Shown here piece by piece: positions 10,722 through 31,960 of a stretch of DNA of 38,211 bases. Source of the DNA: Singulisphaera sp. (GTDB lineage Bacteria > Planctomycetota > Planctomycetia > Isosphaerales > Isosphaeraceae). The position numbers were made by a program, and so were the translations under genes. The number at the start of each line of letters is the position of its first letter. The first letter of the stretch is position 1. The notes beneath the pieces were generated by a model, which saw only the letters and a program-made list of their open reading frames with translations, made no database searches and had not been told where the DNA came from. The stretch is from positions 1 through 38,211 of the forward strand of contig DAIDJG010000192.1 in the NCBI GenBank assembly GCA_027451445.1, read 5' to 3'.

Positions 10722-13226
10722 TCATTCTTCGACTCGATCTCGACGACCCCACGCGCTGGCCCGAATCATCGTGACCTTGAGGGCGTCGTTGACCACGAGG
10801 CACGCGAGCATGGCGTAACCGAAGACCGCAACCGTGTGCGTGGGGGACAGGGGCGTCAAACCGGGCAGGCCCGCGAACGGCACGAGCGTCCCCGCCAGGA
10901 TGTCCAGGACCAGAGCCGCGGCCAGGAGGTTGCTCGGCTTCGTTGTCCAGAACCACCGTCGCTCGCGCGCCGACACGATCGAGAACACGGCGAAGTAGAG
11001 GAGTGTCTGAAAACTGAACGTATGCAAGGCATGATCGTTCGTGCCCAGTCCGAACGGCGACCAGCAGAGGGTCAGGAGGAGGAGGGTTTCCGCGACCATC
11101 GCTACGCCCAGCACGGCGGAAATGAGGATAAAACCGCCGATGTTCCACGTCTCCGGCTTCCGCGACCAGCGCACGTCGTCGGTCGCCAGGGCGATCTTGG
11201 CGAAATCGGTCATGAACACGAGCAACAGCATGGCAAAGGCAGAGATCACGAACTTCCCCGTTACGACGAACGCGATCGCGACAAACGCCGCCTTCAGGAT
11301 CGTCCGGCTGATCTTGTTGAGGATCCACGTTAAGATGCGCTGATAGATCGTCCGACCCTGCTCGACCAGGGTGACGATCTCCGACAGTCCAAGCTCGGTG
11401 AGCACAACGCTGGCCGCCCCTTTGGCGACGTCCGTTGCGCTCGCGACGGCGATCCCTACCTCGGCCTGCCGCAACGCGGGCGCGTCGTTGACGCCGTCAC
11501 CGGTCATCCCGACGACGTGTCCCGCTGCCTGCAGATTCTTTACGACGATGTATTTGTCCTCGGGATACACTTCCGCGAAGCCATCGACACCGGACAGCAG
11601 TTCGCTCCGCGCTTCGCCATCGGCCGCCTGCCTCGCTTTCAAATCGGCAACGTGCTGGATGTTAGCCAACCCAACCGTTTGTGCGATCTCGCGCGCCACC
11701 GGTAGCCCGTCGCCGGTGAGCATCTTCACGCCAATGCCGAGGTCTCGGAGCGTGGCGATGAGTGCTTTCGCATCCGGACGAGGAGGGTCGTTCAACATGA
11801 CCAGCCCTATGAGCTCGACTGGTCCGGCTTCCAGTCCTCGGGCGACGGCCAGCGTCCGATAACCCTTCGCGGCCGACTCCGTCGCGCACAACTCCAGTTC
11901 CGCAGTCTCCGCCGCCGACAGCCCGCAGAGCTCCGCAATGGTTCCGACGGCGCCCTTCATCGTGCGATGACGCTGGCCCCCTCGCTCCACCACCGCCTCG
12001 GTCCGGCGATTCGCTGCGTCGAAGGGCTTGAACGAGATCGGAACGACCGGATCGCCCCCGTCAAAGAGTCGACGCTCGTGCGCGGCGGCGAGAAACGCCA
12101 GGTCGATCGGATCCTGGTTCGCCTCTTGCGACGCCAGCGCTCCCGCCTGCAACACTTCAGACTCGGTCGCGCCGGCGAGGACCATAACGCCGGTGACGGC
12201 AAGCCGGTTCATCGTGATCGTCCCCGTCTTGTCGACGCAAAGCACGTCCATGGTCGCGGCATCTTCGGCGGCGCTGAGCCGCGTGACCAACACGCCGTGC
12301 CGGGACAACTCGGCCGCACCGACAGCCATCCCGACCGTGAACATCACCGGCAGGGCGACAGGCACTGCGCTCATTAGCAGGACGAGCAGCAACGGGAGCA
12401 TCTCGACGAGCGGCACGCCTCGAAGCGTCGAGAGCACGGCCACGACGGTGAGCAGCACGCCCACGATCACAAAGAGCCAGCGCACGACCTTCGCCACGAC
12501 CGCCTCGATATGGAGCGTCGGCCGAGCGCGCTGTACAAGCTCGGTCGTGCGACCGAAGTAGGTCGCCGCTCCGGTCAACATCACGACCCCGTTCCCCTCC
12601 CCTCGGCGCACGACCGAACCCGATGAAAGCACGTCTCCCCGCTCCTTGTCGACATCCCTCGACTCGCCGGTCAGTGCCGACTGATCGACCCGGAGCGATC
12701 CGGACAGGAGCCGCACGTCGGCCGGAATGATATCACCGGTTCGGAGGCGGACGATATCGCCGGGGACAAGCTCTCGCGCTGGGATGAGACGCCATGAAGA
12801 ATCACGCCGTACGCGCCCGCTTACCTGGAGCCGCCGTCGCAACGCCTCCAGGACCCCCGTTGCCCTCCGCTCCTGCGCAAAGCTCAGGACGGCATTGACG
12901 ACCAACAGCCCGCTCACGACGACCAGATCTGCATACTTATGAAGAACGGCTGAGAGCACGATGATAAGCTCGAGCATCCACGCCGAGAGGCCCCAGAACT
13001 TTTTCAGAAAAGCCAGGATCGGATTCCGCTTGTGTTCGGGCACTTCGTTGTAGCCATGCTCCTTCAGCCGGCGCTCAACCTCGTCGCCCGAGAGGCCCAA
13101 TTCCGGATTCACACCAAGCCTTAACAATGCCTCTTCGATCGCTGCTGACGCGATTTCCGGCGATGCGCCGGGCGAAACGATCGACGGCGCGTGTTTCGGT
13201 ACCGGCCGGTCGGTTTGCGATGGCAT
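10722..13226 (-). CDS. Plasma-membrane proton-efflux-type P-type ATPase (P3A-like)
   Basis: 834 residues from ATG 13226; a TTG 24 codons upstream would extend a basic, unconserved tail, so I prefer the ATG. The N-terminus is a cation-ATPase domain (GLSGDEVERRLKEHGYNEVP). Landmarks are the actuator LTGES, the phosphorylation site DKTGTIT (Asp at about 332), MLTGDG, the hinge GDGVNDAPALRQAEVGIAVA, and an M6 segment VFMTDFAKIALATDDV typical of H+-ATPases. About ten membrane helices are expected. It probably pumps protons out of the cytoplasm at the expense of ATP. Its start faces that of the glucan phosphorylase, with 121 bases between them. The terminal autoinhibitory extension of plant enzymes is not seen. 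Confidence 0.9.
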   Translation of the reverse strand: MPSQTDRPVPKHAPSIVSPGASPEIASAAIEEALLRLGVNPELGLSGDEVERRLKEHGYNEVPEHKRNPILAFLKKFWGLSAWMLELIIVLSAVLHKYADLVVVSGLLVVNAVLSFAQERRATGVLEALRRRLQVSGRVRRDSSWRLIPARELVPGDIVRLRTGDIIPADVRLLSGSLRVDQSALTGESRDVDKERGDVLSSGSVVRRGEGNGVVMLTGAATYFGRTTELVQRARPTLHIEAVVAKVVRWLFVIVGVLLTVVAVLSTLRGVPLVEMLPLLLVLLMSAVPVALPVMFTVGMAVGAAELSRHGVLVTRLSAAEDAATMDVLCVDKTGTITMNRLAVTGVMVLAGATESEVLQAGALASQEANQDPIDLAFLAAAHERRLFDGGDPVVPISFKPFDAANRRTEAVVERGGQRHRTMKGAVGTIAELCGLSAAETAELELCATESAAKGYRTLAVARGLEAGPVELIGLVMLNDPPRPDAKALIATLRDLGIGVKMLTGDGLPVAREIAQTVGLANIQHVADLKARQAADGEARSELLSGVDGFAEVYPEDKYIVVKNLQAAGHVVGMTGDGVNDAPALRQAEVGIAVASATDVAKGAASVVLTELGLSEIVTLVEQGRTIYQRILTWILNKISRTILKAAFVAIAFVVTGKFVISAFAMLLLVFMTDFAKIALATDDVRWSRKPETWNIGGFILISAVLGVAMVAETLLLLTLCWSPFGLGTNDHALHTFSFQTLLYFAVFSIVSARERRWFWTTKPSNLLAAALVLDILAGTLVPFAGLPGLTPLSPTHTVAVFGYAMLACLVVNDALKVTMIRASAWGRRDRVEE

Positions 13227-13347: not shown

Positions 13348-15882
13348 ATGTACCACTACCTGAATCGCGCTCTGCCTGCCGGCCTGGAACCGCTCACCGA
13401 GCTGGCCCTCGACCTTTCCTGGAACTGGAATCAGAGCGGAGACGAGCTCTGGAAGACGCTCGATCTTGAAGTGTGGGAGCGGACCAGGAATCCTTACCTG
13501 ATCCTGCAGAACGTCTCGCAGAGCCGGCTGGAGGCTGCGGCAAGGGATCCTGCGCTGAAGGAGCAACTCGATCAAATCTTTGGAAAGCGTCGCCAGTATC
13601 TCCAGGAGCCCGGCTGGTTTGCCCGTAACCACTCTCCGGACGAGCTCCGCAGTGTTGCCTACCTCAGCATGGAATTCGGCCTTTCGGAGGCGTTGCCGAT
13701 TTATTCCGGCGGGCTCGGCGTGCTGGCTGGCGACTATCTCAAGACGGCGAGCGACCTCGGAGTCCCAGCCATCGGGATCGGCCTGCTCTATCAGCAGGGC
13801 TACTTCAACCAGGTCCTGAATGCCGACGGCTGGCAGCTCGAAGCATTCCCCTATAACGATCCCATCAGCCTCCCCGTCACGCCGGTCAGGGATCGCGACG
13901 GCGGTTGGCTGCGCATCAAGCTGGCGCTTCCGGGACGTGATCTGATTCTGCGTATCTGGCTGGTTCAGGTCGGCAAGATTCCGCTGTATCTGCTCGACAG
14001 CAACGATCCGTTGAATCGTCCCTGGGACCGTGCCATCACGTCGACGCTCTACACGACCGACCGCGAACGGCGTTTGCTTCAGGAGATCGTCCTGGGAATC
14101 GGTGGGTGGCGGGTGATTGAATCGTTGGGGCTCGACGTCGACGTGTGCCACCTCAACGAAGGTCATGCGGCGTTCGCCGTCCTGGCGCGGGCGCACAGTT
14201 TCATGCGGCGTGCGGGAGCGACGTTCGAAGAGTCGCTGCGCGCCACTCGTCCGGGAAACGTGTTCACGACGCATACGCCGGTCGATGCGGCCTTCGATCG
14301 CTTTGAACCGGAATTGCTCGCGCACTACGCTGCTCGAGTGCCCGAGATGCTTGGGATCTCCCTCGAGCAGTTTCTGGGTCTGGGTCGCGCGAATCCAGCC
14401 GACCCACGCGAGCCCTTTAACATGGCCTACCTGGCGGTGCGCGGCTCGGGCTTCATCAACGGCGTCAGCTCGCTCCACGGGCAGGTGAGCCGGTTGCTCT
14501 TCGGCCGGCTCTTTCCCGAGTGGCCTTGGGCGGAGGTGCCTATCAGCTCCGTGACGAACGGGGCACACCAATCCTCATGGGATTCTCCCGCCGCCGATCG
14601 CTTCTGGCTGAAAACCTGCGGCGTCAACCGCTGGCGAGGGGCCATCGATGAATTGCCCTGCCAGATCGCCGCGTCGTCGGATACGGACATCTGGGCCTTC
14701 CGGGCAGAATTGCGACAGCACCTGGTCGCCTACGTGCGTCGTCGACTCTGCCGGCAACTGCACGAGCAGGGTGGGGCGGATGAGTGTCTGCGACGGGCCG
14801 AGCACGTGCTCGATCCCAATGCGCTAACCCTCGGGTTCGCGCGGCGCTTCACCGAATACAAGCGTCCCAACCTTTTGCTTCACGACCCCGAACGCCTGGC
14901 CCGTCTTCTGACGAACCCCGATCGCCCCGTTCAACTGATCGTGGCCGGCAAGGCGCACCCGGCGGATTTCGGCGGCAAGCAGCTCGTGCAAGCGTTGGTT
15001 CGATTTACCAGTCGGCCGGACATGTTCGACCGGGCCGTGTTTCTGGAAGACTACGACATGGCTCTGTCGCAGGAGCTCGTCGGCGGCATCGACGTCTGGA
15101 TCAACACCCCGCGCCGACCCTGGGAGGCCTGCGGCACGAGCGGCATGAAAGTCCTGGCGAACGGCGGGCTCAATCTTTCGGAGCTCGACGGTTGGTGGGC
15201 CGAAGCGTATTCACCCGAGGTTGGCTGGGCACTCGGCGACGGTGGTAACCACACGGAGCCTGGCTGGGATGCCGCCGAAGCGCAGCAGTTGTACTCTCTC
15301 CTGGAAACACAAATCATCCCCGAGTTCTACCGTCGCGACGAGACAGGGCTTCCTCGCCAATGGATCGAGCGTGTCCGGCAAAGCATGGCCCGGCTCACCC
15401 CCCGGTTCAGTGGCAATCGTATGGTCCGCGAGTATGTCGAAAGCCTCTATCTGAGCGCCGCCAGGACTTATCGCCGACGCGCCGCCGACAACGGTCGCGT
15501 CGCCAGGGACCTCGTCACGTGGAGCCGCATGCTCGGCGCCAACTGGAAGGATGTGCGTTTCGGAGAGGTGCGCGTCACGCCCGGCGAGGGCATCTGGCAC
15601 TTCGACGCGCAACTCTACATGGGGGAAATTGCCCCCGATTCGATTCGCGTCGAGCTCTATGCGGACCCGGTTGGCAACGAAGATCCCGTACGCATCGTCA
15701 TGTCGCGTGACGGCGCCATCGCCGGCGCTCTGAACAGCCATCGGTATCTCGCCGATGCCCCATCGACCCGCCCGATCGAGCACTACACACCCCGTGCGAT
15801 CCCCGTCCACACGGAAGTGATGGTGCCGCTGGAAGAGTCACATATCCGGTGGTTCCGGGGAGGGGCGTTAGTATCGTCATAA
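13348..15882 (+). CDS. glgP: Alpha-glucan (glycogen) phosphorylase, GT35 short-type
   Basis: 844 residues with a start preceded by AAAGG. The N-terminal ALPAGLEPLTELALDLSWNWN is the DUF3417 region found in the alpha-glucan phosphorylase subfamily modelled as TIGR02094, distinct from the E. coli GlgP/MalP type. The PLP-binding lysine lies in EACGTSGMKVLANGGLNLS (Lys about 601). SMEFGLSEALPIYSGGLGVL (about 110-130) is also typical. It should phosphorolyse alpha-1,4-glucans to glucose-1-phosphate in the cytosol. No other glycogen genes are adjacent; the divergent neighbour is a proton pump. Confidence 0.93.
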   Translation: MYHYLNRALPAGLEPLTELALDLSWNWNQSGDELWKTLDLEVWERTRNPYLILQNVSQSRLEAAARDPALKEQLDQIFGKRRQYLQEPGWFARNHSPDELRSVAYLSMEFGLSEALPIYSGGLGVLAGDYLKTASDLGVPAIGIGLLYQQGYFNQVLNADGWQLEAFPYNDPISLPVTPVRDRDGGWLRIKLALPGRDLILRIWLVQVGKIPLYLLDSNDPLNRPWDRAITSTLYTTDRERRLLQEIVLGIGGWRVIESLGLDVDVCHLNEGHAAFAVLARAHSFMRRAGATFEESLRATRPGNVFTTHTPVDAAFDRFEPELLAHYAARVPEMLGISLEQFLGLGRANPADPREPFNMAYLAVRGSGFINGVSSLHGQVSRLLFGRLFPEWPWAEVPISSVTNGAHQSSWDSPAADRFWLKTCGVNRWRGAIDELPCQIAASSDTDIWAFRAELRQHLVAYVRRRLCRQLHEQGGADECLRRAEHVLDPNALTLGFARRFTEYKRPNLLLHDPERLARLLTNPDRPVQLIVAGKAHPADFGGKQLVQALVRFTSRPDMFDRAVFLEDYDMALSQELVGGIDVWINTPRRPWEACGTSGMKVLANGGLNLSELDGWWAEAYSPEVGWALGDGGNHTEPGWDAAEAQQLYSLLETQIIPEFYRRDETGLPRQWIERVRQSMARLTPRFSGNRMVREYVESLYLSAARTYRRRAADNGRVARDLVTWSRMLGANWKDVRFGEVRVTPGEGIWHFDAQLYMGEIAPDSIRVELYADPVGNEDPVRIVMSRDGAIAGALNSHRYLADAPSTRPIEHYTPRAIPVHTEVMVPLEESHIRWFRGGALVSS

Positions 15883-15914
15883 TGCGTGGACGATGTACGT
15901 CGATTTCAGTGACC

Positions 15915-15970
15915 GTGAGCGAGATTCCGCGGAAATGAGCCGCGCGCTAAAATGCGTGTGCCGGCGTTCC
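15915..15970 (+). repeat. Copy A of a 56-bp dispersed intergenic repeat
   Basis: One of four related segments (others at 18121, 18187 and 19024), all in the same orientation. Shared features in order: GAG-CG-GATTCCG-like start, GGAA, GAGCCG-like centre, (T/C)TAAAATGC, GT-C, GGCGT. The distance from the start to the TAAAATGC block is the same in all four. A and B match at roughly 41 of 56 positions by hand alignment. Confidence 0.7.
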
Positions 15971-16103
15971 TTTGAGTTGTCGCGTGCCGATCCATAATGT
16001 GCTCTTGAAGGCAGTGCCGTATCAGGCTCCATCGGATCCCTTAGTGACAAGGTGTGCCCTGAAGTCTCCCTGGTTTACCGTTGTCGCGATGTCGAGCCGC
16101 GGT

Positions 16104-16460
16104 TTACGCGTTCCCTTCGTTTTCCTGCTCCTCGAGCTCCTTGAGAGTCCGCTGAAGATCTTCCTTCTCCTTCGGGAACAGGTGAGGGAGCTCGACCCAG
16201 TGTCGGTACAGGCACAATTCCCACGGACAGGCACCGAAGTCGGGCCGATGGTCGGCCAGGAGCTGGAAGGCGTCGTGGACGTCGGGTGCGATGGCTTCGC
16301 GTTCGCGAGCGAGACGAGTGAGGATTTCGATGGCGGCGTTGGTCGGCCAGTCCTGGGGACCGAGCAGGATGGACCGCAGGGCCTCGCGCCGCGTTGACCC
16401 TTCCCAGCCGTCGTCCACCTGTGCCGCGATGGCGAGCGCCGCGCGATGGACGCGAGGGAG
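16104..16460 (-). pseudogene. In-frame continuation of the TPR gene beyond an amber codon
   Basis: After the TAG at 16463-16461 the same frame stays open for 118 more codons, from LPRVHRAALAIAAQVDDGWE to QENEGNA and a stop at 16104. The composition is that of real protein: helical, with ordered motifs such as RSILLGPQDWPTNAAIEILT, VHDAFQLLADHRPDFGACPW and YRHWVELPHLFPKEKEDLQ. A GTG at 16418 could start a 104-residue product, but no good ribosome site precedes it. The simplest reading is the C-terminal domain of the TPR protein, cut off by a single CAG-to-TAG-type change, a sequencing error, or readthrough. Confidence 0.65.
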
Positions 16461-17969
16461 CTAGGCGAGCGCGGTCTTTCCTTGCGGAACGGCCGGGGGA
16501 TGCACGAGCACTGCAAGGATTTCGCCGACCCGCTCGGGACCGAGTGCCTCGGCCGCACGACTGGCCCCGGCCCAGTTCGTCAGCTCGTCGTACGGGATCG
16601 ACGCCAGCGCGGCGACGCGCTCCACGACGTCCGCGGAGGGGGGCGGGAGGTTAGGAATCGGCTGGATGCCGTCGTACGTCCAGATCCGGTATTTCACATC
16701 CGCGATCGGCTCGCGAGGGTCCGGCGACGGCACGCGATCCACCGCCATCCGTAACCGCAGCTCGCGGCCGATGGCCTCGCCTTCGAGACGAAACGCCAGG
16801 TGGTTGCTGGGCGCTTCGAGGCAAGCGAGGCCGATGCGGATTTCGCCCTGCGGTGCCTTCGATGGGTCGTCGACGATGGATTGGCGAAAGTGACGCAACA
16901 GGCTCGCGGTGGCGTCGCTGGGTTCGTCCGGTTCGGCCCAGAACGCCCGCTGGCAAAGTATGCCCGCGCGCCGGTCGCCCGCCTTCATGAGCGCGACCAC
17001 TTCGTTGAGGTGCTTTTCCTCGCCGCTCATCTTCCAACGGCAATAGAGAGCGGACGGCATGGCCCATTCTTGATGCGGTTCTCGAGCGAGGAGTTCGTCG
17101 TACCAGGCCAGGGCCGCCGGCCACTGTTGGACTCCGAAGAAGGTGTCGCCCGCTTCGAGGTAGACGCTGAAGTTGTTGGGGTCGATCTGCTGGCTCACCC
17201 GAAACGCCTCTGCGGCCCCCTCGGGATCGCCTTTTTCGCGCAGGATCAACCCCAGGGCTGTAGCCAGGTACCAGCTCTCACCGGGTCCCATGGCGCGCTC
17301 GACCGCGGCCTCGGCGTCGTCCAGTCGGCCCGCCTTGCGGAGGAGGCCGGCCGTGAACATGAGGAGCTGGCCATTGTCGGGATGGACCGAACCCAAACGT
17401 TCGGCGAGCCGCGCCCAACGCTCGACCTCGCGAAGTTGCGGGAGCGGCGACTGTCTGGCTTCGGGGAATCGGATGAGCGTGGACGAGAGGAGACGGAGTC
17501 CCGTCTCGAGAGGCAACGTTTCCATGACGCCCAGGGGCTCGAGCCAGCTCAGGCCCCACGTCTCCAGGTAGCGCAGGGTCTTTTTGGCTTCGACGACATT
17601 CACCAGCAGCACGATCGCATCCGCGAGCCGCCCCTGCTTGTGCCAGATGTAGGCGCGCAGGGCCTCGGTACCCGTGTAGAGTTGCTCCCCGCGCGGGATC
17701 AATGACTCAGGATCGGAGCCCGCGGCCGCCAGATATCGCTCGAGCAATTCGACCCACTCCGCGTGGCCTGGGTCGAACAGGAGCAGGTTGGCGAGGTGCG
17801 ACGCGCCGTGCTTGAGGCTGTGGCCTGCCTCGATCTCGGCCTGCGCCACGAACCACTCGAATTCCGCCGTTCCCTGACGGAGCGCGATCGTGCTGTGGTC
17901 GCACCCACCGGGTTCGTCGGCTCCGGAATCACCACGTAGCTTCTTGACGAACCTTTGCCACCAGGACAT
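16461..17969 (-). CDS. TPR-repeat protein, ended early by an amber codon
   Basis: 502 residues from ATG 17969, chosen because a strong GAGGTGAT sits directly upstream; an upstream frame extends 32 codons but looks random. It begins MSWWQRFVKKLRGD and contains several TPR-like helical pairs, for example SLKHGASHLANLLLFDPGHA, DDAEAAVERAMGPGESWYLA, PEGAAEAFRVSQQIDPNNFS and FFGVQQWPAALAWYDELLAR. No signal peptide or membrane helix is seen, so it is probably cytosolic and mediates protein-protein contacts. The family is not one I can name. The frame continues for 118 codons after its TAG stop, so the natural protein may be about 620 residues. Confidence 0.8.
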   Translation of the reverse strand: MSWWQRFVKKLRGDSGADEPGGCDHSTIALRQGTAEFEWFVAQAEIEAGHSLKHGASHLANLLLFDPGHAEWVELLERYLAAAGSDPESLIPRGEQLYTGTEALRAYIWHKQGRLADAIVLLVNVVEAKKTLRYLETWGLSWLEPLGVMETLPLETGLRLLSSTLIRFPEARQSPLPQLREVERWARLAERLGSVHPDNGQLLMFTAGLLRKAGRLDDAEAAVERAMGPGESWYLATALGLILREKGDPEGAAEAFRVSQQIDPNNFSVYLEAGDTFFGVQQWPAALAWYDELLAREPHQEWAMPSALYCRWKMSGEEKHLNEVVALMKAGDRRAGILCQRAFWAEPDEPSDATASLLRHFRQSIVDDPSKAPQGEIRIGLACLEAPSNHLAFRLEGEAIGRELRLRMAVDRVPSPDPREPIADVKYRIWTYDGIQPIPNLPPPSADVVERVAALASIPYDELTNWAGASRAAEALGPERVGEILAVLVHPPAVPQGKTALA

Positions 17970-17972
17970 AAG

Positions 17973-17980
17973 ATCACCTC
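17973..17980 (-). promoter_or_regulatory. Ribosome binding site of the TPR gene
   Basis: Read on the minus strand, GAGGTGAT lies 3 bases before ATG 17969. It decides this start over the longer upstream frame. Confidence 0.7.
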
Positions 17981-18120
17981 GTCGGCCGAATGGTGTCGAA
18001 TTCCGCGGGTCGCGACCCAAGGGCACATGATCGTGCGAATCACAGTCGTCCGCAATCGAATTCACCGGTCCGATTGGGTTGCGCCGTTGGCAGACGGCAG
18101 AACGTGCACTTCGCTGACCC

Positions 18121-18176
18121 GTGCACGAGATTCTGCGGAACCGGACCGCTAGCTACAGTGCGCGTCCTGGCGTCCC
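18121..18176 (+). repeat. Copy B of the 56-bp dispersed repeat
   Basis: This is the most diverged copy: TACAGTGC replaces TAAAATGC, but GAGATTC, GCGGAA, ACCGC, GTCC and GGCGT are kept at the same spacing as in copy A. It lies 66 bases before copy C in the region between the TPR and PEP-CTERM genes. Confidence 0.6.
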
Positions 18177-18186
18177 CCAGTTGCTT

Positions 18187-18242
18187 TGGAGCGCGGCTCC
18201 GAGGAAACGAACTGTCCGTTAAAATGCATGTCCCGACGTGGC
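18187..18242 (+). repeat. Copy C of the 56-bp dispersed repeat
   Basis: It has GAGCGCGGCTCCGAGGAAAC, then GTTAAAATGCATGTCC and GACGT, aligned without gaps to copies A and D. It is about 100 bases upstream of the PEP-CTERM start. Confidence 0.7.
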
Positions 18243-18329
18243 CGTCGGAGTAGAAACGCAGCCGTTTAATATTGACAGGAAGAGGTACATCCTCAATTCT
18301 TTGCGCTCGCGACAATGTCGTGAACACTC

Positions 18330-18338
18330 AAGGAGGAG
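18330..18338 (+). promoter_or_regulatory. Strong ribosome binding site of the PEP-CTERM gene
   Basis: AAGGAGGAG, 4 bases before ATG 18343, fixes the start over an open frame that extends 35 codons further upstream. Confidence 0.85.
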
Positions 18339-18342
18339 CGAA

Positions 18343-19059
18343 ATGCGCCTGGTGACTCTTGCAACTCTCGGTCTCGCGATCATCGGATTCGCCCTCTGTT
18401 CCTCGGCGCACGCGGATCCTCTCATCCTGACATTCACGGGCACGGCGTTCGGTGCACCTTTACTTGCGGACTTTCCGCTCGCTGCCTCGGGAATCCCCGA
18501 TGACGCGACCAGCGGTGTCAGTGGTCAGTGGTTCGCAATCACCGACGAGCCGATCAACGTCCTCATTCAGCCGTTCGTTTACCCTTCCCCGGGGCAGGTG
18601 TATCCGTTTACCAGTTCGTTCAACATGCAAGTGACCCTGAGTGGGCTGAACGGGAACCCGGGCGTCGCCGCGACCGAAACCTTGTCAGGCCCCATTTCCG
18701 GCAGCTACGGTCCCATTCAATCGGCCAACGATATAATACCCGTCACGGTGTCGGGCAGTGCGGTTGCGACCAACTTGATTCTGCAACCCGGGGTGACCCT
18801 GAGCGAACTGCCATCCTGGTTTCCGGGAATGGGGGTTACCCTGCACGCTGTGCTCCGTCCAGATATTCCATATCATAATCTGTACGTAGACGCGGATCTC
18901 ATACCAGGCTCGCCTCAGAACATTCCGGAGCCGTCGTCGCTGCTGACTTTTGCCGGAGTTGCCCTCGCGATCAGCCGGGGCTTCAGCCGCCGGAAGACCC
19001 GACGACACGAACATCGCGGTCTTGCGAGCGCGATGCGAGGGGAACGAGCCGCCAGTTAA
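18343..19059 (+). CDS. Exported PEP-CTERM domain protein with an unusual C-terminal tail
   Basis: 238 residues. A signal peptide (1-24, hydrophobic LATLGLAIIGFALCSSAHA) is followed by a polar, Ser/Pro/Gly-rich body without cysteines in the mature part. The C-terminus has IPEPSSLLTFAGVALAIS and a basic cluster (RGFSRRK, about 194-218), the PEP-CTERM sorting signal recognised by exosortase and expected to be cleaved. Such proteins normally end within a few residues of the basic cluster; this one runs on for 20 residues (219-238). The last dozen or so are encoded by repeat copy D, which also supplies the TAA. The body matches no domain I recognise; a surface or extracellular-matrix role is inferred from the sorting signal. 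No exosortase gene is in the window. Confidence 0.85.
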   Translation: MRLVTLATLGLAIIGFALCSSAHADPLILTFTGTAFGAPLLADFPLAASGIPDDATSGVSGQWFAITDEPINVLIQPFVYPSPGQVYPFTSSFNMQVTLSGLNGNPGVAATETLSGPISGSYGPIQSANDIIPVTVSGSAVATNLILQPGVTLSELPSWFPGMGVTLHAVLRPDIPYHNLYVDADLIPGSPQNIPEPSSLLTFAGVALAISRGFSRRKTRRHEHRGLASAMRGERAAS

Positions 19060-19080
19060 AACGCACGTCCTGGAACCTCC
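19024..19080 (+). repeat. Copy D of the dispersed repeat, overlapping a gene end
   Basis: It aligns without gaps to copies A and C (GAGCGCGATGCGAGGGGAAC, then GTTAAAACGCACGTCC). Its first half encodes the last dozen residues of the PEP-CTERM protein, and its conserved TTAAAA block provides the stop codon at 19057-19059. Confidence 0.7.
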
Positions 19081-31500: not shown

Positions 31501-31599
31501 GGTTTGGCGGTTGGCGTTCTCGAGATGTCCCGACGAACTTGACACCGTCGCCACGTGAGCGGGTTGTCTTCGAGGTCGCTGCCACAAAAGGGAGAAGCC

Positions 31600-31960
31600 G
31601 AGGCCATCGCCCACCCCCCCAACTCTGGGAAGTTGAAAAGTCCCGGTGGACAGCGTTGCGCGTTCCGTCATTTCTGTTGCGCGCTTGGCCCTGAAAGGGC
31701 CAGACAGGAAAGCCCAGGGCAACGCCCTGGGTATGCGTGACACAAAAACATGATTCCGCCCTGACGGGGCGGGACAGGCCGACGCGGCCCCTTCAGGGCG
31801 GCACAGAAGCAAGGTAGGCATCGGTCCCCAGGGCTTTGGCCCTGGGCTTTCCTGTCTGACCCTTTCAGGGCCAAGAAAATGCACCGTCGCGTAACGTTTT
31901 TCGCGCAGAAGAGGGCCAGAAAACCGTGACGCGAGGCCGATTTTTCAACTCCCCACCCCT
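31600..31960. repeat. Nested palindromic intergenic repeat
   Basis: Outer arms of about 48 bases (31684-31731 and 31827-31875) are near-perfect reverse complements, each containing CCCTGAAAGGG or its variant, GACAGGAAAGCCCAGGGC and the AACGCCCTGGG end. A second hairpin sits in the centre (31756-31770 with 31786-31801). Outside, GAAGTTGAAAAGTC at 31629 and its inverted counterpart near 31940 suggest that the palindrome continues. Frames across it encode Pro/Arg-rich nonsense and are not genes. Confidence 0.75.

Follow-up and report, generated by a model that had tools for sequence, protein, structure and literature searches.

A decayed palindromic repeat family of probable mobile origin in a Singulisphaera genome

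Introduction

Bacterial MITEs are elements of 70-300 bp with 15-30 bp TIRs and no coding capacity (PMC3733652). Among the TIR repeats described for Y1 transposases, some are self-complementary and clustered, and a planctomycete, R. baltica, is reported to have Y1 genes with flanking repeats (PMC3733652). Here we describe a repeat that occurs four times in a stretch of 38,211 nucleotides (hereafter the window; contig C192) of a Singulisphaera genome (G000; 10.88 Mb in 622 contigs).

Like the MITEs, this repeat of ~85 bp is non-coding, intergenic and dispersed, and its consensus has 17-bp terminal complementary arms; unlike them, it comes with no detected target duplication or parent insertion sequence. 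With the TIR repeats of the TIRYT/TIRtron type it shares a moderate copy number, self-complementarity, and an arrangement in dimers and clusters, and the same genome has Y1 genes with other palindromic repeats at their flanks. However, no Y1 gene flanked by the repeat itself was found, its copies are heavily decayed, and neighboring copies are co-oriented. As in REP/REPIN sequences with RAYTs, the unit is an extragenic hairpin that forms tandem pairs and is limited to one species, but it measures 85 bp rather than 20-40, lies away from Y1 genes and is not present in high copy number. Neither a GTAG nor a CGTC tag is found in the consensus; with both tags absent and no copy adjoining a Y1 gene at the eight loci searched, we rejected the repeat as a REP belonging to a RAYT of the genome. 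Finally, the copies resemble integron attC sites in being imperfect palindromes of similar length, clustered in the same orientation between small genes, and differ from them in lacking the R''/R' core boxes and a maintained fold, with no integron integrase scoring over the cut-off. Judged by its anatomy, the repeat falls within the published MITE range and is closer still to those TIR repeats of Y1 transposases that are self-complementary and clustered. It would work like such a TIR repeat, but we do not file it as one because no copies were seen at the flanks of the eight Y1 loci examined.

Four copies of the repeat in the window

The preliminary description of the window placed four segments in one orientation, alignable without gaps over 56 bp, and our analysis confirms them, with 32-41 of the 56 positions identical; the pair at 15915 and 18121 is the top-scoring same-strand 56-mer pair within the window. 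An independent profile, trained solely on copies from contigs other than the window's, recovers all four, at 18091-18175 (E 8.8e-15), 18993-19080 (E 8.6e-14), 15917-15971 (E 9.9e-12), and 18183-18241 (E 1.3e-9), while the match ranked after them in the window has an E of 0.14. Their scores of 33-50 bits compare with a maximum of 16.9 bits in simulated sequence (100 windows, 3.8 Mb, first-order).

The flanks of further copies in the genome revealed a longer unit of ~85 bp, starting up to ~30 bp earlier than supposed. The 56-bp view had therefore caught the middle and the right arm and overlooked the left arm. The fixed spacing that was reported is internal to the unit and does not extend to the intervals between successive copies, which are 2206, 66, and 837 bp. 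Likewise, the TAAAA block follows GAG at a distance of 31 bp in three of the four copies; copy 2 has TACAG in its place and lacks GAG at the aligned position.

All four copies are on the + strand. Copy 1 (15896..15971; 15896-15970 with the R1 profile, E 2.4e-12), whose left outer arm is decayed, is located ~15 bp 3' of the stop of a + strand ORF (13348-15882) and also precedes the 3' end of the TPR-gene region. The TPR-repeat protein gene (16461..17969, - strand; PF07719/PF14559 above cut-off) occupies the space between copies 1 and 2, outside the repeat. Copy 2 (18090..18177; R1 E 2.4e-16) is near full length with both arms discernible, whereas copy 3 (18183..18241; R1 E 2.6e-7) consists of the middle and right arm only and has no left arm at its junction with copy 2. 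The two are arranged head to tail in the gap that separates the divergent TPR and PEP-CTERM genes.

The full-length copy 4 (18993..19080; R1 E 6.5e-16) overlaps the 3' end of the gene for a PEP-CTERM protein of 238 aa (18343..19059, + strand; PF07589 match at residues 194-217, 19.7 bits, slightly under the cut-off of 20.7). It begins at about residue 218, immediately past the PEP-CTERM motif, and contributes the last ~21 codons and the stop codon. A new tail and stop provided in this way is the pattern expected of an insertion, and annotation of this gene should take into account that its tail derives from the repeat.

Consensus structure and decay of the repeat unit

The consensus, AGACCCCAGGACATGCACTTCGCTGGCTTCCGAGCGCGATTCCGCGGAAACGAACCGCCAGCTAAAATGCATGTCCTGGGGTCT, is a near-perfect palindrome with outer complementary arms of 17 bp. 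In its predicted fold (-52 kcal/mol), an outer stem of 17 bp is followed by the asymmetric internal loop CTTC/TAAAA and then by an inner stem. These terminal inverted repeats are a property of the consensus that individual copies do not preserve. Identity between copy and consensus ranges from 57 to 85%, and no young identical copies were seen among those compared with the consensus, the best being the one at 85%.

Over 33 copies, the arms pair in 61.3% of cells, compared to 61.9% (sd 0.9) when the 3' letters are shuffled within columns, and 50 cells are compensatory, against 46.5 (sd 5.5) in the shuffles. The four window copies also fold no better than shuffled sequences, with z-scores from -0.65 to +0.22. 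The ancestor was thus palindromic, but its copies have not been kept so, each arm decaying alone. The absence of a maintained fold argues against an RNA and against fold-dependent sites of the attC type.

Distribution in the genome

Copy counts rest on searches of the genome and on 0.78 Mb of individual contigs. Additional copies were first located with a degenerate pattern, so the refuting condition set in the preliminary description, a genome lacking any others, does not hold. A sequence-only profile gave ~50 matches in the genome at E up to 0.04, and the iterated profile found 49 copies over the 0.78 Mb of contigs, 45 of them with E < 1e-3, so that the window segments belong to a dispersed, non-coding family of ~50 copies. 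A related subfamily, B, is longer (~125-140 bp), has ~12 members, and shares the middle and the right side with the main family.

Coding sequence makes up ~74% of the DNA, yet 43 of 45 copies lie between genes; the other two overlap the ends of genes. Flanking genes are found in each of the four possible orientations, about as often as in the background. The clustering around TPR and PEP-CTERM genes noted in the window is not general, as the majority of copies adjoin unrelated genes. Cassettes of defense genes were rejected, as PADLOC returned no match.

Four copies are found at homologous positions upstream of Rpn-like genes, where they drift together with their spacers; these copies have been co-duplicated with the genes. 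The Rpn/DUF4351-like family itself comprises ~13 copies in the genome, one at L059:3816-4787 (C264) and ~12 at further loci, with varying internal repeat units, and is absent from the congener. Its identity was assigned by reading the sequence, with Pfam returning MgtE_N alone. The genome also contains DUF1559, Rhodopirellula-type transposase, and PEP-CTERM gene families, which point to a planctomycete.

Distribution in other genomes

The congener, 43 other members of the taxonomic family, and 297 other members of the class yielded no comparable repeat family; at E up to 1e-4, the only match in another genome is a partial one in G018. No copies of the family were found in plasmids. Viral contigs gave no match and GTDB contigs a single one, probably due to chance, in searches with an exact short pattern that decayed copies would escape. 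The repeat family is apparently undescribed so far and limited to one species.

The congener is distant, with 82% DNA identity in an rpoD-like region and a closest glgP-like match of 42% in protein, which leaves room on a long private branch for the family to have both expanded in a burst and decayed. No empty sites were found; the sole congener compared is too distant for such a comparison, lacking synteny with the surroundings of the window copies.

Clustering and shared orientation of neighboring copies

Adjacent copies less than 10 kb apart form 18 pairs, where 1.8 would be expected and no more than 7 arose in any of 5000 draws, a ~10-fold excess, and the orientation is identical in all 18. 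The sole discordant matches, at C332:8179 and C416:17128, are weak, lie outside this set, and are both on the minus strand. There are three tandem pairs, and seven contigs carry at least two copies at E < 1e-3. Shared flanks, as left by recent segmental duplications, are seen in the Rpn-like unit only. Orientation has no clear link with GC skew or with the share of coding strand (p 0.15). Among the 27 copy-bearing contigs, 21 carry copies in plus and 6 in minus orientation (p about 0.006), where contig orientation should be arbitrary.

The family is unusual mainly for having its neighbors point one way, and this co-orientation is the one feature that ordinary double-strand MITE insertion fails to predict. 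Local duplication, exchange of cassettes, or insertion into a single strand, as at replication forks, could each produce it. Such strict co-orientation offers a testable trace of which of these routes palindromic repeats take as they spread.

Origin of the repeat

The preliminary description left the choice between a mobile repeat, a protein-binding site, and a small RNA. The family has a palindromic consensus, and its copies are dispersed, intergenic, and independently decayed. As a non-coding, species-limited palindrome with terminal arms and this distribution, it fits a mobile repeat best, and the four segments are probably decayed copies of a non-autonomous palindromic element, MITE-like or TIR/REP-like, the pattern of the copies being what suggests mobility. 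The ancestral unit, as single-stranded DNA, would form a long hairpin. It may have been spread in trans by a transposase. The most plausible candidate is a Y1 (HUH) enzyme of the RAYT/TIRYT type that works on single strands; such an enzyme acts on hairpins and could leave each replicating strand with copies in one orientation. A number of copies would later have been carried within segmental duplications, as beside the Rpn-like genes. The transposase may since have been lost, or may be present but unrecognised, and today's copies presumably drift with little or no function.

Flank-to-flank identity does not exceed chance for the size of the search, so no target-site duplication was detected; the copies are too decayed for one to be expected. 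In the contigs scanned, no transposase is found between the arms or between copies. The genome has nine Y1_Tnp matches, eight of whose loci were searched for the repeat at their flanks, with none found. Other palindromic repeats border several of these Y1 genes, and the genome has further, unrelated palindromic families dispersed through it. A genome already rich in repeats linked to Y1 transposases gains one more palindromic family.

An unlikely alternative to a mobile repeat is that the copies are recombination sites of cassette arrays, palindromes in one orientation as in integrons, serving as entry points for small gene cassettes by way of a recombinase or homologous recombination. The excess of close, uniformly oriented pairs agrees with this, as do clusters containing small unrelated genes (seven of the eight genes scanned in the C416 cluster have no Pfam match) and sites located 12-73 bp beyond, or overlapping, the stop of a same-strand gene. 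A tyrosine recombinase (L063:6138-6980, C223) is also encoded 2.1 kb from the three-copy cluster on C223, but it is near that cluster only, and none was found by the others. Inverted genes and core genes, such as that for malic enzyme, adjoin copies too, and the palindromic fold is not maintained. The consensus is devoid of RYYYAAC/GTTRRRY boxes, the attC finder gave two matches in the 0.78 Mb of copy-bearing contigs, both in the same stretch, compared to one in shuffled sequence, and all TIGR02249 matches are below the cut-off for an integron integrase. With the core boxes missing and no integrase over cut-off, attC sites of an integron were rejected.

We consider it quite improbable that the repeat is a conserved double-stranded site for protein binding or regulation, for example a promoter. 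Conservation is more uneven along the unit than under simulated uniform decay (column variance 0.0123 vs 0.0051), and the conserved columns include TT (43-44) and TA-AAT (66-71), 17 bp apart, in subfamily B as well, so that TTCCGC-N17-TA(A/C)AAT recurs in both subfamilies. This unevenness possibly reflects some constraint, or else diverse source copies. However, the downstream gene is inconsistent, with neighbors in all four orientations at roughly background proportions; some copies have indels between the two blocks; and a binding site leaves the 17-bp palindromic arms of the consensus unexplained.

There is only a slim chance that the copies represent directional recombination sites of a new class, which are palindromic but unrelated to attC and have built arrays of small gene cassettes in this lineage via an unrecognised recombinase; if true, this would explain the clusters, with 18 of 18 pairs co-oriented, better than ordinary transposition. 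Hardly credible is a structured RNA, either a cis-regulatory hairpin or a small RNA, spread by duplication: the consensus fold is strong, but the covarying arms proposed as a sign of RNA were not seen, 39% of pairs are broken, the window copies fold like shuffled sequence, and no Rfam match stands above chance, so that a conserved RNA was rejected.

Other palindromic repeats in the genome

A second, unrelated self-palindromic repeat of ~170 bp, ~84% alike between copies, is found at L035:1380-1560 and at C264:2561-2726, C257:3498-3660, C308:7361-7527, C178:9282-9445, and C441:13335-13500 of the same genome; one copy adjoins a Y1 transposase gene on C486. A third palindromic family of ~75-95 bp, up to ~96% alike and apparently younger, occurs at C264:11706-11800 and 17562-17636, C257:4383-4457, C67:61391-61460, C406:1018-1087, and C268:12952-13023 (all in G000). 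Hairpin doublets, CCCAGCGTTTTAACGCTGGG, at L034:1300-1365 and 1980-2045 flank a Y1 transposase gene on C579, and a dispersed hairpin doublet at C426:24350-24585 immediately adjoins one copy of the ~85-bp family.

Palindromes resembling attC, of a constant 169 bp and with boxes GCCCAAC and GTTAGGC/GTTGGGC, are located at L182:1247-1415 (C101), L194:1110-1278 (C130), and L143:8183-8351 and 10809-10977 (C67). On C101, the homology of the Rpn-like gene unit starts right after the 169-bp palindrome. Within the window, positions 31541-31620 are 84% identical over 80 bp with C257:9762-9841 and represent another dispersed repeat.
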